From Streptomyces scopuliridis RB72 (GTDB lineage Bacteria; Actinomycetota; Actinomycetes; Streptomycetales; Streptomycetaceae), in assembly GCF_000718095.1 (NCBI RefSeq), contig NZ_JOEI01000014.1:62001-126000 (forward strand): a DNA stretch of 64,000 nt. The letters run 5' to 3'. Below, in pieces: positions 7,724 to 29,738 of the stretch; position 1 is the stretch's first letter; every line of letters starts with the position of its first letter. The translations under genes were made by a program, and so were the position numbers. The notes under the pieces are model-generated. The model searched no databases. It was not told the DNA's origin and saw nothing but the letters and a program-made list of their open reading frames with translations.

Positions 7724-7729
7724 TTTCAG

Positions 7730-7803
7730 TAGCGGGGACAGGATTTGAACCTGCGACCTCTGGGTTATGAGCCCAGCGAGCTACCGAGCTGCTCCACCCC
7801 GCG
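7730..7803 (-). tRNA. tRNA-fMet (CAT), initiator
   Basis: The reverse complement folds as a complete 74-base cloverleaf without encoded CCA. The anticodon stem carries three G:C pairs next to the loop (GGG before CTCATAA, then CCC), and position 1 is an unpaired C against U72. Both are marks of an initiator tRNA. The anticodon is CAU. It is identical over its whole length to the copy at 10009-10082. Confidence 0.97.
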
Positions 7804-10000: not shown

Positions 10001-10008
10001 ACTTCGCG

Positions 10009-10082
10009 TAGCGGGGACAGGATTTGAACCTGCGACCTCTGGGTTATGAGCCCAGCGAGCTACCGAGCTGCTCCACCCCGCG
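10009..10082 (-). tRNA. tRNA-fMet (CAT), initiator, second copy
   Basis: Base-for-base identical to the tRNA at 7730-7803, with the same initiator hallmarks. Only about 25 bp separate it from the stop of the large membrane protein gene upstream on the same strand, so it could be transcribed by read-through as well as from its own promoter. Confidence 0.97.
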
Positions 10083-24604: not shown

Positions 24605-26026
24605 ATGTCTGATCTTCCCCGGAAGGCGGTCACCCGTACCGCGAAGCTGGCCACGCTGCCGCTGGGCTTCGCAGGCCGGGCCACATGGGGGCTCGGCAAG
24701 CGGATCGGCGGGAAGCCCGCGGAGATCGTCGCGCGGGAGTTGCAACAGCGCACGGCCGACCAGCTCTTCAAGGTGCTCGGGGAGCTGAAGGGCGGAGCGA
24801 TGAAGTTCGGGCAGGCGCTGTCCGTCTTCGAGTCCGCGCTGCCGGAGGAGATCGCGGGGCCCTACCGGGCGGCGCTCACCAAGCTCCAGGAAGCGGCGCC
24901 GCCCATGCCGACCCGTACGGTGCACGCGGTGCTGGCGGAGCGGCTCGGCGAGGAATGGCGGGAGCTGTTCCTGGAGTTCGAGGACAAGCCGTCGGCCGCC
25001 GCGTCGATCGGCCAGGTGCACCGGGCGGTGTGGCACGACGGACGCGAGGTCGCGGTCAAGGTGCAGTATCCGGGGGCGGGCGAGGCACTACTGTCGGATC
25101 TGACCCAATTGAGCCGGTTTGCCCGGCTGCTGGGGCCGCTCATTCCGGGGTTGGACATCAAGCCGCTGATCAACGAGTTGCGCGACCGGGTGTCCGAGGA
25201 ACTGGACTACGCCCTGGAGGCCGAGGCGCAGCGGGAGCACGCGGCGGAGTTCGCGGACGATCCGGATGTGGTGGTGCCCGATGTGGTGCACCAGGGCGAT
25301 CAGGTGCTGGTCACGGAGTGGATCGACGGGACACCGCTGGCGGAGGTGATCTCCGACGGCACGCCCGAGGAGCGCGACCGGGCGGGGCAGTTGCTGGCGC
25401 GGTTCCTCTTCTCGGGCCCGGCGCGTACGGGCCTGCTGCACGCGGATCCGCATCCCGGGAACTTCCGGCTGCTGCCCGCCGCGGACGCCGAAGAGGACGG
25501 CTCGTCCGGTGAACTGCGGCTCGGAGTCCTGGACTTCGGCACGGTGGACCGGCTGCCCGGCGGGCTGCCCGACACGATCGGTGAGGCGCTGTGGATGGCG
25601 CTGGAGGGCGACGCCCAGGCGGTGTACGGCCTGCTGCGGGACGAGGGGTTCGTCAAGGAGTCCATCGATCTCGACCCGGACGCGGTGCTTGAGTATCTGC
25701 TGCCGATCATCGAGCCCGCGGTGGTGGAGGAGTTCGCCTTCACCCGAAGCTGGATGCGCGCGCAGGCAGCGCGGATCGCCGACCCGCGGTCTCCCGCCAA
25801 CCAGTTGGGCAAGCAGCTGAATCTGCCCCCGTCGTATCTGCTGATCCACCGGGTGACGCTGAGCACCATCGGAGTGCTCTGTCAGCTGAGCGCGACGGTA
25901 CGGCTCCGGGACGAGCTGGAGGCATGGCTGCCCGGGTTCCTGCCGGAGCCGGGCGACGAGGAAGAGATCCTGTCACCACCGGTCGGAGTCGAGTCTGCCC
26001 TCGATGGCTCTGATGTGGGCGCGTGA
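24605..26026 (+). CDS. ABC1/UbiB-family atypical kinase
   Basis: A 473-residue protein with the UbiB/ADCK fold. The N-terminal KxGQ-type motif is AMKFGQALS (near residue 65), the Ala-rich loop is AASIGQVHRA (near 137), VAVKVQYPG carries the ATP-binding Lys (near 151), HADPHPGNF is the catalytic loop (near 280), and LGVLDFGTVDRL is the metal-binding DFG (near 310). No transmembrane helix is seen, unlike proteobacterial UbiB. Members support isoprenoid-quinone synthesis or lipid homeostasis; the actinomycete role is not fixed. Start ATG 24605 has AGGAGGGG eight bases upstream. It lies 42 bp after the E1-like gene in the same direction. Confidence 0.9.
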   Translation: MSDLPRKAVTRTAKLATLPLGFAGRATWGLGKRIGGKPAEIVARELQQRTADQLFKVLGELKGGAMKFGQALSVFESALPEEIAGPYRAALTKLQEAAPPMPTRTVHAVLAERLGEEWRELFLEFEDKPSAAASIGQVHRAVWHDGREVAVKVQYPGAGEALLSDLTQLSRFARLLGPLIPGLDIKPLINELRDRVSEELDYALEAEAQREHAAEFADDPDVVVPDVVHQGDQVLVTEWIDGTPLAEVISDGTPEERDRAGQLLARFLFSGPARTGLLHADPHPGNFRLLPAADAEEDGSSGELRLGVLDFGTVDRLPGGLPDTIGEALWMALEGDAQAVYGLLRDEGFVKESIDLDPDAVLEYLLPIIEPAVVEEFAFTRSWMRAQAARIADPRSPANQLGKQLNLPPSYLLIHRVTLSTIGVLCQLSATVRLRDELEAWLPGFLPEPGDEEEILSPPVGVESALDGSDVGA

Positions 26027-26157: not shown

Positions 26158-26481
26158 CTACTGCATGACGGCCATGGCGAGCGCGCGGCGGGCGCGCATC
26201 GATACGCGCTCGGCGCGGCGCTGCATCCGCCGAGCGGCGACCAGGCGCACGGCCCGGCGTTCCGCGTCGGCTTCCCGCATGCGCTCGTTCATATGCGCGC
26301 GTGCCAGGGCTTCTGGAATGAGTTGCATCTCGCGGGTCCTGTTCTGACGCGAGTCATTCGCGCCCATGGTGGTGACGACTGGGGTGGCGGAGCCGGACGG
26401 CTCGCTCGGGGAAGAGGTCATCGGAGCCTGCTTCTGGGGATCGTGCGTGAGGGGGCGGTCGATGGTTCCGGTGACGTTCAT
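26158..26481 (-). CDS. Small basic protein translationally coupled to wblC
   Basis: A 107-residue protein. The N-terminal half is polar and disordered-looking; the C-terminal ~55 residues are a strongly basic helix (NERMREADAERRAVRL, then RRMQRRAERVSMRARRAL). The ATG at 26481 overlaps the wblC stop as ATGA, so the two are one operon and probably coupled in translation. I do not recognise a named family. The Arg-rich helix would suit nucleic-acid or ribosome binding, but that is a guess. Internal ATGs (for example the Met before TSSPSEPSG) are alternatives. Confidence 0.7.
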   Translation of the reverse strand: MNVTGTIDRPLTHDPQKQAPMTSSPSEPSGSATPVVTTMGANDSRQNRTREMQLIPEALARAHMNERMREADAERRAVRLVAARRMQRRAERVSMRARRALAMAVMQ

Positions 26482-26846
26482 GCCGAGACCGGGTTCTTGC
26501 GCGGACGGCCACGGGGCCGCTTGCGGGCAACCACGACGCCCTGGACGAAGAGCTCCCCACCCCAGACACCCCACGGCTCGCGCCGCTCCTTGGCGCCGGC
26601 GAGGCAGGCCTCGATCAGCGGGCAGGTGCGGCAGAGCGCCTTGGCGTACTCGACATCGGCCGGGGACTCGGCGAAGAAGACCTCCGGGTCGTAGGCACGG
26701 CAGGGAACGGGTACGCCGAGGTTCTCGATGGCGTCGTCGAGCGCGGTCAGCGCGGTGAGCGGGGTCAAGGTGGAGTCCTCCGTGGAGCCGGGCGGGGTGA
26801 TCGATTCGGAAGGCGGTACGGACGGGGCGTGCGCTTCGAGTTGCAC
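26478..26846 (-). CDS. wblC: WhiB-family regulator of intrinsic antibiotic resistance (WhiB7 orthologue)
   Basis: A 122-residue iron-sulfur transcription factor. The four cluster-binding Cys are in VPVPCRAYD and ALCRTCPLIEAC (residues ~51-86). The beta-turn GVWGGE follows, and the C-terminus carries an AT-hook (KRPRGRPRKN), the combination that identifies WhiB7/WblC. In actinomycetes this protein binds the primary sigma factor and, through the AT-hook, AT-rich DNA just upstream of the -35. It switches on ribosome-protection, rRNA-methylation and efflux genes when translation is inhibited, and also its own gene. Start GTG 26846 has GAGGAA about 12 bases upstream. The unusual long leader is annotated separately. 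Confidence 0.95.
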   Translation of the reverse strand: MQLEAHAPSVPPSESITPPGSTEDSTLTPLTALTALDDAIENLGVPVPCRAYDPEVFFAESPADVEYAKALCRTCPLIEACLAGAKERREPWGVWGGELFVQGVVVARKRPRGRPRKNPVSA

Positions 26847-26960
26847 GGGGTGTCGTTCCTCGTCTGGTCGGTCCGGCCTGTTGGCCGGGTGTCGGCTGGT
26901 ACCGGGTGTTGCGTGTCCCGAGGCCCCTTCGCTCTGGCTGTCCCGTTCGGGACAAACAGA

Positions 26961-26995
26961 AGGGCCGCGGATCCCGGGTGGGGTTCCGCGGCCCT
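26961..26995 (-). terminator. Attenuator terminator in the wblC leader
   Basis: Perfect 11-bp arms, AGGGCCGCGGA (26961-26971) and its complement (26985-26995), with a 13-base loop. On the minus strand they are followed by the T-rich TCTGTTTGT. It stands between the upstream ORF stop (27019) and the wblC start (26846), so it would end transcription before wblC unless bypassed. A U-tract of this quality is rare elsewhere in the window. Confidence 0.8.
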
Positions 26996-27005
26996 GAAGG
27001 CGCCG

Positions 27006-27024
27006 GCCTGATGGTGGATCAGGC
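27006..27024 (-). promoter_or_regulatory. Hairpin over the stop codon of the wblC upstream ORF
   Basis: GCCTGAT (27006-27012) pairs with ATCAGGC (27018-27024) around a 5-base loop. The stop codon of the upstream ORF (27019-27021) is in one arm. A ribosome finishing the ORF would block it, which could couple translation to the terminator just downstream. Confidence 0.5.
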
Positions 27025-27363
27025 TGGATCACTCCAGGGTTCGAGCCCACGGAAGGCCCACATCGTGTGGTGCTGCATCTGCTTCGTTGCTTCGGCACCG
27101 GTCGCCGCAAAGGCATAGGCCTTGGCCTCTGCCGCTGCTACTCCTGCTTCCAGTGCCTTGGTCGGTCGCTCATTACGCTCCAGGACATTGACGGCGCGCT
27201 TCCGGACAGGAAGGGCCGACAGACCTGCGGGACGCACGGCGGAGGCGCCGGACAGACCACTGGCGATGAGTTCGGACCGGGAGAAGCCGAGCGGGCAGAC
27301 GGAGACGACCGAGGGATCGGTCATTTTGGCGGTGCTGATGAAGCTTGCGTTGATGCTGATCAC
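27019..27363 (-). CDS. 114-codon upstream ORF in the wblC leader
   Basis: Starts with GTG 27363, preceded by GAGAGGAGGC at ideal distance, one of the best ribosome-binding sites in the window. The product begins VISINASFISTAK and ends HHTMWAFRGLEPWSDPA. The sequence is of mixed composition with no known domain. Codon bias is weaker than in neighbouring genes near the 3' end. It ends 24 bases before the attenuator stem. Upstream ORFs are a feature of whiB7/wblC leaders; slow or stalled translation is thought to favour read-through into the regulator. Whether the peptide itself matters is unknown. Confidence 0.7.
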   Translation of the reverse strand: MISINASFISTAKMTDPSVVSVCPLGFSRSELIASGLSGASAVRPAGLSALPVRKRAVNVLERNERPTKALEAGVAAAEAKAYAFAATGAEATKQMQHHTMWAFRGLEPWSDPA

Positions 27364-27477
27364 TGGAATCGCCTCCTCTCGGCGTCTCAAGGACCGGCCC
27401 GAAGGCCCGTCACACGTATCTGGACAAGTAGAGCACGGTAACAGGGCTTCGGAGAAGCCGTTGTTTCCGTGGTTAAG

Positions 27478-27516
27478 AACCTATGGGGATTCCTGGGGCG
27501 GGCGCAAACTATTTTT
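27478..27516 (-). promoter_or_regulatory. WhiB7/WblC-type autoregulated promoter
   Basis: On the minus strand: AT-rich AAAAAT at 27516-27511, three bases, -35-like TTGCGC (27507-27502), 18-bp spacer, -10 TAGGTT (27483-27478). The A/T block directly upstream of a sigma-A-type -35 is the defining feature of WhiB7-dependent promoters, bound by the AT-hook. Transcription would begin near 27471, giving a leader of about 625 bases before wblC. Confidence 0.75.
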
Positions 27517-27530
27517 GGGTCGAGTTTGCC

Positions 27531-29738
27531 TCAGCTGTCCCGATCGGCTTCCGCGCGCTCTTCACCTGCGCAGATGGCCAGCACATCGGCTCCGAACCGG
27601 TCCAGCTTGCGGCTGCCGACACCGGCGATCCCGGCCAGCTCGCCCGCGCTCCCGGGCACGGCCTCGGCGATCGCCATCAGTGTCTTGTCGGTGAACACGC
27701 AATAGGCGGGCTGACTCAGCTGCTGTGCCTGGTCGGCACGCCAGTCGCGCAGCCGCTCGTAGAGCGCCTCGTCCATGTCCGAGGGACAGTCCTCGCAGCG
27801 CATCAGCTTCATCTCGCCGGCGTCCGTAAGCGTCTTGCCGCACACCCGGCACAGCACCGGACCGCGCCGCTTGCGCCGGACCGCGCCCGCGCGGTCCACG
27901 GAACCGCCCGCGCCCGGCGCCGCGCCCCGGGCGCCCGGGGCCACGGAGCCCGGTCGCAGCCCGTTGAGAAAGCGGGTGGCCCGCCGGGAGGCCCGGCCGC
28001 CGGGAGAGCGGGAGAGCGCCCAGGAGAGGGAGAGATGCAACCGCGCCCGGGTGACACCGACATAGAGCAGCCGGCGCTCCTCCTCGATCTGCTCGTCGGT
28101 CTTGGCGTAGGTGATCGGCATCATGCCCTCGGTGAGACCGACGAGGAACACCGCGTCCCACTCCAGGCCCTTCGCGGCGTGCAGCGAGGCGAGCGTGACG
28201 CCCTGCACGGTCGGCGCGTGCTGCGCGGCGGCGCGCTCGTCCAGCTCGGCCACCAGATCGGCGAGCGTCGCCGAGGGCTTGGCCCGTACGAAGTCCTCGG
28301 CGAGCCGGACGAGGGCGGCCAGCGACTCCCAGCGGTCACGGACCGCGCCCGAGCCCGCCGGAGGTTCGGTGGTCCAGCCCTTCGTGGAGAGCACCGCCCG
28401 GACCTGCGACGGCAGCTCGACCACATCGTCGAGCAGGGAGTCGTTGCCCCCGAAGCGGGCCGCGCCACGCAGCGCGGCGCCCGCTTCCCGTACCTCCTGG
28501 CGTTCGAAGAACCGCTCGGCGCCGCGCAGCTGGTAGGGCACGCCCGCGTCGGCGAGGGCCTGTTCGTAGACCTCCGACTGCGCGTTGATCCGGTACAGCA
28601 CCGCGATCTCGCCGGCCGGCACGCCCGCGGCGATCAGATCGCGGATCCGGCGGGCGGTGCCCTCGGCCTCGGCCGGCTCGTCCGCGTACTCCGCGCAGAC
28701 CGGCTCGGGGCCCGGCTCGCGCTGCGAGATCAGTTCGAGCCGGTGCTCGGCGGCCCGGCCGCGCGCCTGGTTGAGCAGGCCGTTGGCGAGATGGACCACC
28801 TGCGGGGTGGAGCGGTAGTCACGGACCAGCTTCACGACGGTGGCGCTCGGATGCCGGGTGCGGAAGTTCAGCAGATGGTCCGGGGTGGCGCCGGTGAAGG
28901 AGTAGATGGTCTGGCTGGCGTCACCGACCACACAGAGGCTCTCCCGGTCCCCCAGCCACAGGTCGAGCAGCCGCTGCTGGAGCGGGCTGACGTCCTGGTA
29001 CTCGTCCACCACGAAGTGCTGGTACTGACGGCGGATCTGGTCGGCGATGTCATGGCGGTCCTGGAGGATGCCGACCGTGAGCAGCAGGACATCCTCGAAG
29101 TCGATCACCGAGCGCTCGCGCTTCAGCTGCTCGTACATCCCGTAGATCTGGCCGATCTCGGCCGCGTCGCGCGGGGCTTCGCGGGAGGACTTGGCCACGG
29201 CGGCCGGATAGTCGGCCGGTACGGTCTGGGTGACCTTCGCCCACTCGATCTCGCCGGTGACATCGCGCAGTTCATTGCGGTCGAGCCGGATCCGGCAGCG
29301 GGCCGCGGACTCGGCGACCAGCTGCACCTTGCGGTCCAGCAGCCGGGGCAGCTCTCCGCCGACCGCCTTGGGCCAGAAGAACTGGAGCTGGCGCAGCGCC
29401 GCCGAGTGGAACGTACGCGCCTGCACACCGCCCGCGCCGAGCTGGCGCAGCCGCCCGCGCATCTCGCCCGCGGCGCGGTTGGTGAACGTGACGGCCAGCA
29501 CGCTGGCGGGCTGGAGGATCCCCGCGCGCACGCCGTACGCGATCCGGTGCGTGATCGCACGCGTCTTGCCCGTGCCGGCGCCCGCCAGCACGCACACCGG
29601 ACCGTGCAGGGCCGTCGCCACCTCGCGCTGCTCGGGGTCGAGCCCGTCGAGCACCGCGTCGGCGTCGCGCGGCGGGGTCACGATCTGGCCGCCGTCGGAT
29701 TCCCGCGGGAACAGTGAGGAGTGCGTTGCTGCTGTCAC
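27531..29738 (-). CDS. uvrD2: ATP-dependent DNA helicase UvrD2
   Basis: Superfamily 1A helicase of 735 residues. Walker A is VLAGAGTGKTRAITHRI near residue 50, motif II is VVDEYQDVSPLQQR near 240, and the motif IV-VI region holds VRDYRSTPQV, LHAAKGLEWDAVFLVG and LLYVGVTRARLHLSLSW. A short CxxC...CxxC zinc-like segment (CRVCGK...CEDC) precedes a C-terminal HRDC domain (~residues 660-735), the actinobacterial UvrD2 architecture. It unwinds 3'-tailed duplexes in repair and is essential in mycobacteria. Start GTG 29738 (VTAATHSSLFPRE) is taken; the frame runs further upstream without credible coding content. It is divergent to the mycoredoxin gene. Confidence 0.92.
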   Translation of the reverse strand: MTAATHSSLFPRESDGGQIVTPPRDADAVLDGLDPEQREVATALHGPVCVLAGAGTGKTRAITHRIAYGVRAGILQPASVLAVTFTNRAAGEMRGRLRQLGAGGVQARTFHSAALRQLQFFWPKAVGGELPRLLDRKVQLVAESAARCRIRLDRNELRDVTGEIEWAKVTQTVPADYPAAVAKSSREAPRDAAEIGQIYGMYEQLKRERSVIDFEDVLLLTVGILQDRHDIADQIRRQYQHFVVDEYQDVSPLQQRLLDLWLGDRESLCVVGDASQTIYSFTGATPDHLLNFRTRHPSATVVKLVRDYRSTPQVVHLANGLLNQARGRAAEHRLELISQREPGPEPVCAEYADEPAEAEGTARRIRDLIAAGVPAGEIAVLYRINAQSEVYEQALADAGVPYQLRGAERFFERQEVREAGAALRGAARFGGNDSLLDDVVELPSQVRAVLSTKGWTTEPPAGSGAVRDRWESLAALVRLAEDFVRAKPSATLADLVAELDERAAAQHAPTVQGVTLASLHAAKGLEWDAVFLVGLTEGMMPITYAKTDEQIEEERRLLYVGVTRARLHLSLSWALSRSPGGRASRRATRFLNGLRPGSVAPGARGAAPGAGGSVDRAGAVRRKRRGPVLCRVCGKTLTDAGEMKLMRCEDCPSDMDEALYERLRDWRADQAQQLSQPAYCVFTDKTLMAIAEAVPGSAGELAGIAGVGSRKLDRFGADVLAICAGEERAEADRDS

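Follow-up and report, generated by a model that had tools for sequence, protein, structure and literature searches.

How can a single upstream open reading frame (uORF) respond both to unrelated drugs that target the ribosome and to a shortage of amino acids? This question is raised by the leader of wblC (whiB7) in a 64,000-nucleotide stretch of Streptomyces scopuliridis RB72, the whole of which we call the window. uORF-dependent attenuation of whiB7/wblC is attributed to Lee, Lee & Roe 2022 in the available passages of PMC11550727, PMC9618640, PMC10727445, PMC12121999, PMC13236596 and PMC13393426, some of which add Burian & Thompson 2018; a passage of PMC12421871 makes the same statement with a reference number that is apparently off by one. 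Amino-acid shortage also induces the gene, according to passages of PMC11550727, PMC12421871, PMC13393426 and PMC12121999. As a 2025 eLife paper puts it in its available text, antibiotic-induced stalling inside the whiB7 uORF had not been tested (PMC12121999). The module in the window is an ortholog of this published attenuator, whose mechanism is already known. We put at roughly 90% the probability that the locus as a whole is best explained as a whiB7/wblC ribosome-mediated transcription attenuator with a position-insensitive uORF sensor. The geometry of the switch and the amino-acid repertoire of the uORF offer a simple answer to the question, testable with reporters one codon at a time.

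On the minus strand, the order of the elements is promoter, ribosome-binding site, uORF, hairpin, terminator and wblC (Table 1). A first-pass annotation of this DNA had located the promoter, the 114-codon uORF, the stop-codon hairpin and the terminator, and our reading of the minus strand places them identically. It had also set wblC just 3' of the terminator, which holds, with a start at 26847, which is one base off: the GTG codon occupies 26846-26844. Reading from 26847 is out of frame, and reading from 26846 yields 122 amino acids with an AT hook.

A UvrD-type helicase neighbourhood is one of the marks of a WhiB7/WblC leader. The helicase adjoining wblC carries UvrD, UvrD_C and HRDC domains (Pfam), and the wblC product combines a WhiB domain with the RGRPRK AT hook; NCBIfam returned no family for WblC at E 0.01. 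The putative promoter has an AT-rich box 3 bp upstream of the -35 element, as autoregulated promoters of such leaders do. In the available text of PMC7157823, the S. coelicolor WblC motif is GAAAWY 3 bp upstream of TKGMNN, followed by a 16-19 bp spacer and TANNNT; as a sequence match only, the box in the window agrees at 5 of 6 positions and is off at its first letter. The promoter is well conserved among the aligned leaders listed in a 51-leader alignment.

Several other features were recorded around the locus. The leader RNA is predicted to begin with a conserved hairpin (27471-27434, minus) directly at its 5' end. The 4-fold synonymous identity of wblC (26846-26478) was 0.773, well above the 0.544 of the neighbouring helicase in the same loci. 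A 107-codon ORF (26481-26158, minus) has an ATG overlapping the wblC stop (ATGA), which suggests a translationally coupled small gene 3' of wblC. Convergent with wblC is an ABC1/UbiB-type kinase gene (24605-26026, plus), whose product scores 451 bits against NCBIfam MABP-1 (macrolide-binding ATPase), under the cut-off of 800. Two tRNA-Met (CAT) genes (7729-7803 and 10008-10082, minus) have equal Rfam scores and lie about 2.3 kb apart. ARAGORN called a tRNA-Thr inside the helicase ORF (27840-27934, minus) that is absent from the Rfam matches and is probably false.

Table 1. Elements of the wblC leader and their positions in the window
Feature	Positions	Strand	Detail
WblC/WhiB7-type promoter (predicted)	27478..27516	minus	AT-rich box AAAAAT 27516-27511, 3 nt, -35 TTGCGC 27507-27502, 18-bp spacer, -10 TAGGTT 27483-27478
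Possible pairing of the uORF ribosome-binding region with codons ~19-26	27286..27383	minus	Ribosome-binding side 27383-27378 and 27376-27369
Shine-Dalgarno AGGAGG of the uORF	27372..27377	minus	GGAGG invariant in alignment A3 (61 sequences)
uORF	27019..27363	minus	114 codons, GTG start 27363, TGA stop 27021-27019, all 20 amino acids
9-mer GAGCGACCG	27163..27171	minus	Glu-Arg-Pro with the rare CGA codon; uORF codons 65-67, in frame
Hairpin inside the uORF	27094..27157	minus	GGCACTGG 27157-27150 with CCGGTGCC 27101-27094
Predicted antiterminator, 5' strands	27032..27054	minus	TTCCGTGG 27054-27047 and CCCTGGAG 27039-27032, uORF codons 104-111
Stop-codon hairpin, apical part of the predicted antiterminator	27006..27024	minus	GCCTGAT/ATCAGGC, paired in 98.7% of cells
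Predicted antiterminator, 3' strand	26984..26999	minus	CTTCAGGGCCGCGGAA, overlaps the ascending arm of the terminator
Intrinsic terminator	26952..26995	minus	11-bp GC-rich stem, U-rich tail TCTGTTTGT
wblC (whiB7)	26478..26846	minus	122 aa, WhiB domain, RGRPRK AT hook; Pfam Whib 54.8 bits

The first-pass annotation had proposed aligning the ORF across Streptomyces. After identical leaders among 162 loci were collapsed, 129 distinct ones remained, including one of a sister genus (L094), and the uORF is kept in all 129 with its frame, start, ribosome-binding site and stop, by a finder that itself required GGAGG, ATG or GTG, and 70-170 codons; its translation is predicted from this pattern. The start codon is GTG in 113 and ATG in 16, and the stop is always TGA. 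Lengths run from 88 to 129 codons with a median of 108, and long uORFs occur in other Actinomycetes families too. The length of the ORF, formerly called unusual, is thus the rule. Where the first loci were fetched, wblC lay downstream of the uORF in 76/76.

A protein search with the uORF gave a match in 288/295 Streptomyces genomes. The query missed eight Streptomyces genomes (seven and one more), six of which have wblC, in each case preceded by a uORF that has diverged and spans 104-126 codons. The remaining two (G116 and G135) had no match to WblC either at E 1e-25 and were left out. The same query found no match in 16 genomes of other genera. When the finder was anchored on the terminator, 82 of 91 loci from other genera and families had an ORF of 30 codons or more that follows a Shine-Dalgarno sequence and stops just upstream of it; in the other nine no uORF was identified, and the 82 may include wrong choices (e.g. 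L237, 202 codons). This finder replaced, before completeness was scored, an earlier class-wide one that overlooked most leaders because it required a TGA stop and a Pro close to the C-terminus. In L095-L097 a TGA seemed to interrupt wblC, but the likely start is downstream of it and the case is trivial.

Pairing in the leader was scored on hand-picked sets of diverse leaders, 65 for alignment A1 (which leaves out L095-L098), 59 for A2 and 61 for A3. A Rho-independent terminator stands between the uORF and the gene, as in other WhiB7/WblC leaders. Its stem, AGGGCCGCGGA/TCCGCGGCCCT (26995-26961), has its first base 24 nt past the stop codon and is paired in 99.0% of cells (65 sequences). Upstream of it is the 7-bp hairpin that includes the uORF stop codon, with compensatory changes at 4/7 pairs (65 sequences). 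A stem of at least 5 bp enclosing the whole stop codon was found in 127/129 uORFs, compared with 4/129 wblC stops and 154/1290 random TGAs. The hairpin was already recognised in the first-pass annotation, where it was taken for a separate device; in our folds it is instead the tip of a predicted antiterminator that had been missed.

In the minimum free energy fold of 27075..26976 (-46.6 kcal/mol), where the terminator 3' arm is absent, the stop-codon hairpin is enclosed by pairing of TTCCGTGG and CCCTGGAG with CTTCAGGGCCGCGGAA. Once the 3' arm is present, the predicted fold goes to the terminator. Alternative folds, a search for which had been suggested earlier, are therefore predicted, with the antiterminator before the 3' arm is made and the terminator after it. 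RNAalifold predicted the same antiterminator from 51 leaders over 27075..26980. The structure was paired in 96.2% of cells compared with 27-46% for slid versions (65 sequences), and showed 22 compensatory cells against 2.7 in shuffled alignments, every one of them in the stop hairpin. The two long helices were paired in 94.8% and 95.4% of cells; because they never change on both sides, their support is conservation and not covariation. The predicted antiterminator combines uORF and terminator sequence, as is characteristic of WhiB7/WblC leaders. Further downstream, GAAGGGGCC (26930-26922, minus) is well conserved among the aligned leaders and is complementary to the terminator 3' arm GGCCCTTC save for one bulge; alifold pairs the two in the read-through RNA.

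We then modelled a ribosome on the uORF by masking all sequence up to 15 nt past the first P-site base. For the P-site codons tested between 60 and 99, pairing of the terminator ascending arm with the uORF was predicted at 0.89-1.00. The predicted antiterminator pairing fell from 0.62 to 0.26 at codons 100-104 and was at most 0.16 from codon 105, and it was 0.89 without a ribosome. Because the modelled switch flips only at codons 99-105, ribosomes halted at nearly any earlier codon would count, and the uORF would be a position-insensitive sensor; a stall almost anywhere in the first ~98 codons should allow wblC read-through. For the finished RNA at equilibrium, the terminator was favoured in every state modelled (0.86-0.99), and the switch would therefore have to be kinetic.

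These results suggest how the attenuator may work. RNA polymerase would start at the WblC-activated promoter and transcribe the 114-codon uORF. A ribosome in the last ~ten codons would cover the 5' strands of the antiterminator (codons 104-111) and the stop-codon hairpin, and with these strands covered the 11-bp terminator would form and wblC would not be transcribed. If the ribosome is stalled, lagging or never loaded, TTCCGTGG and CCCTGGAG would pair with CTTCAGGGCCGCGGAA, and the stop-codon hairpin would cap the structure. This antiterminator would form before the terminator 3' arm exists and would prevent termination, and after read-through WblC would activate its own promoter. Since it has codons for nearly all amino acids, the uORF may then signal a lack of most charged tRNAs in addition to the presence of antibiotics. 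We infer that the attenuator operates in this way in RB72, including the kinetic order of folding. The general scheme of the first-pass annotation, in which uORF translation leads to the terminator and stalled or slow ribosomes lead to read-through, agrees with the sequence, the folding and the published mechanism; the role of the hairpin and the view of the ORF length are the two parts that changed.

The nucleotide sequence of the uORF is unevenly constrained. Among 78 loci, the 4-fold synonymous identity was 0.957 in codons 1-26, 0.934 in codons 62-75 and 0.955 in codons 98-114, compared with 0.717 and 0.760 between these blocks; wblC had 0.773 and the C-terminus of the helicase 0.544. The amino-acid identities of the three blocks were lower (0.73, 0.80 and 0.90), and codons 27-61 were poorly conserved at this level (0.60). 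Because 4-fold identity in the blocks exceeds that of the intervening stretches, wblC and the helicase, and amino-acid identity is lower, the pattern indicates that what is conserved in the three blocks is the RNA, or the choice of particular codons. The middle block includes GAGCGACCG, found in 120/129 distinct leaders and always in frame 0; its CGA codon is rare, accounting for 23/1218 Arg codons in wblC. A pairing partner with covariation was sought for GAGCGACCG and none was found.

The uORF also contains a hairpin of its own. It was paired in 92.0% of cells, compared with 18-47% for slid versions (59 sequences), and its covariation score was 0.220 against 0.139 when shuffled and at most 0.094 when slid. 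It had 23 compensatory cells compared with 7.9 in shuffled alignments, and the version slid by -3 reaches 20. In the alignment used (A2), L154 and L167 were anchored at the wrong place, L156 is without the 3' arm, and L077 and L085 had no anchor. The anatomy of the leader is conserved, and both the stop hairpin and the mid-uORF hairpin covary; the latter may have a pausing or insulating role.

Other structures were less clear. The pairing of the ribosome-binding region with codons 19-26 is suggestive only: it was present in 89.0% of cells, with 6 compensatory cells against 1.5 in shuffled alignments and 4 to 9 in slid versions. When the uORFs of 16 leaders were each folded against 120 synonymous variants, no extra stability emerged overall, and windows starting at codons 46-70 were less structured than their synonymous controls in several leaders. 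A local hairpin GACCGA/TCGGTC at codons 14-19 was rejected, with covariation no better than that of shuffles. TCGGTCGT (codons 18-20) could pair with the region of GAGCGACCG in ~90% of cells, but this was set aside because a single compensatory cell, at a single pair, was all that it showed. Also set aside was an interaction between the 3' arm of the mid-uORF hairpin and the pre-terminator spacer (94.5%), which had no compensatory change and by eye is lost in L087-type leaders.

We next consider which amino acids the uORF encodes. All 20 were present in 124/129 uORFs of the Streptomyces set, and the other five lacked Cys only; random 108-residue windows of 228 Streptomyces proteins were complete in 12.8%. 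The database relatives examined were complete in 172/172 (the best 120 of 769, plus 34, 8 and 10), and the pooled distinct uORF proteins in 286/291. The completeness within Streptomyces is not independent evidence, because a uORF similarity search brought in most of the loci, and the completeness rule was not chosen blind, as an earlier listing had already shown some completeness. If the columns of the 291 proteins were independent, which ignores descent, 22.9 proteins without Tyr and 14.1 without Asn would be expected, and 0 and 0 were observed; on the same basis, Cys-less uORFs numbered 5 against 8.5 expected. Exactly one Tyr was found in 274/291. Where the usual Tyr was lost (none within four residues), a Tyr stood elsewhere in 20/20, compared with an extra Tyr in 16/271 that kept it. 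By parsimony on a FastTree tree this relocation amounts to 6 changes, with at least 13 of the 20 in one clade.

The comparison was also made with one uORF from each of 32 families. On average these lacked 1.73 residues when protein windows lacked 2.88 (sd 0.30); set against random draws from the pooled uORF composition, the figures were 1.74 and 2.58 (sd 0.25). Each null got down to the observed value in 0/1000 draws. With the last 15 codons removed (27 families; 70/82 uORFs, those keeping at least 45 residues), 2.02 residues were missing, compared with 3.25 for protein windows and 3.03 for uORF composition (0/1000 each). The protein null was drawn from Streptomyces only. Cys and Trp are partial exceptions to the rule. 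At least one residue was absent from 50/82 of the class-wide uORFs, with Cys and Trp missing most often in the sensor part, and 5/10 uORFs that lost the main Cys have none at all. Trp is confined to the last 15 codons in 120/129 Streptomyces-set uORFs. In that part of the uORF the model predicts a partial response, with an antiterminator pairing of 0.42 when codon 101 is in the P site.

Whether selection keeps this repertoire is a close call, with odds we put at about even. The fuller proposal, that the uORF is a general translation meter, a position-insensitive switch of ~100 codons in which selection maintains nearly every amino acid and residues move without being lost, falls slightly short of even odds. 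Completeness could instead be a by-product of an unfolded leader peptide with even composition, repeated through common descent. This is a serious possibility, somewhat doubtful on present evidence: Streptomyces uORFs are related and the pooled uORF composition differs from that of proteins, but sampling one uORF per family still left fewer missing residues than draws from that composition, also without the last 15 codons, and Tyr was relocated rather than lost in the 20/20 cases, through 6 changes on the tree.

Other readings deny the attenuator itself or change what it senses. The uORF might encode a functional small protein acting in trans, with wblC merely the next gene; it is long and conserved, relatives are mostly deposited as 'hypothetical protein' (where named, almost always so among the best 120 of 769), and trans-acting leader peptides exist, such as peTrpL of Sinorhizobium (PMC7298713). 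Against this, the uORF had no Pfam or NCBIfam domain, its three blocks are more constrained at 4-fold sites (0.93-0.96) than in amino acids (0.73-0.90), with only 0.60 in codons 27-61, and wblC followed in every locus first fetched, so that we regard a trans-acting protein as improbable. Much the same standing, if not slightly less, belongs to an arrest peptide, in which the specific nascent chain WAFRG[LP]EPWSDPA together with certain drugs, and not any stall, would halt the ribosome. Within the main group of Streptomyces this motif hardly varies, but it is also held at the nucleotide level (4-fold 0.955) and coincides with the antiterminator strands; in other families the uORF ends in WSPPV or otherwise, and by the modelled geometry a stall there would favour termination. 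A metabolite riboswitch or a Rho-dependent leader with an incidental uORF is very improbable: we found no point in its support, no Rfam family matched the leader at gathering score, and a strong intrinsic terminator is present. The sole Rfam match up to E=1, scr5239, lies on the other strand (E=0.63, below the gathering score) and was taken as chance. Ribosome-mediated attenuation with a position-insensitive sensor remains our preferred reading. If it is true, together with the repertoire, any ribosome-slowing drug or shortage of almost any charged tRNA would raise one master regulator.

As far as we searched, the covarying hairpin in the uORF, the three RNA-constrained blocks and the complete repertoire are new. 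The stop hairpin as antiterminator tip, the mid-uORF hairpin and the repertoire were not found in the openly available literature that was searched; the primary papers may contain them.

The trp attenuator is an amino-acid biosynthetic attenuator with a short leader peptide. A sensor that covers nearly every residue would offer a reason for a leader ORF far longer than such classical leader peptides. In gene, promoter type, uORF and Rho-independent terminator, the module resembles the whiB7/wblC attenuators of Streptomyces coelicolor and mycobacteria, and no difference in principle from the published system was shown; its antiterminator, too, is built from overlapping uORF and terminator sequences, as a passage of PMC10727445 describes. 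Like other uORFs that sense ribosome-targeting antibiotics, it can be compared with the ARE-ABCF attenuators (are5sc, tiaA) and with E. coli toiL (available text of PMC12421871 and PMC12121999). The are5sc and tiaA uORFs, only 3 and 9 codons long, hold the ribosome at their start codon (PMC12421871, same passages), unlike the wblC uORF, and in toiL the stall sites differ by drug (PMC12121999, in part). The ilvB1 attenuator of M. tuberculosis is similar in that the position of the ribosome decides between antiterminator and terminator; its leader is a ~120-nt transcript with four regulatory codons (both from passages of PMC13236596), whereas the wblC uORF has ~110 codons and all 20 residues.
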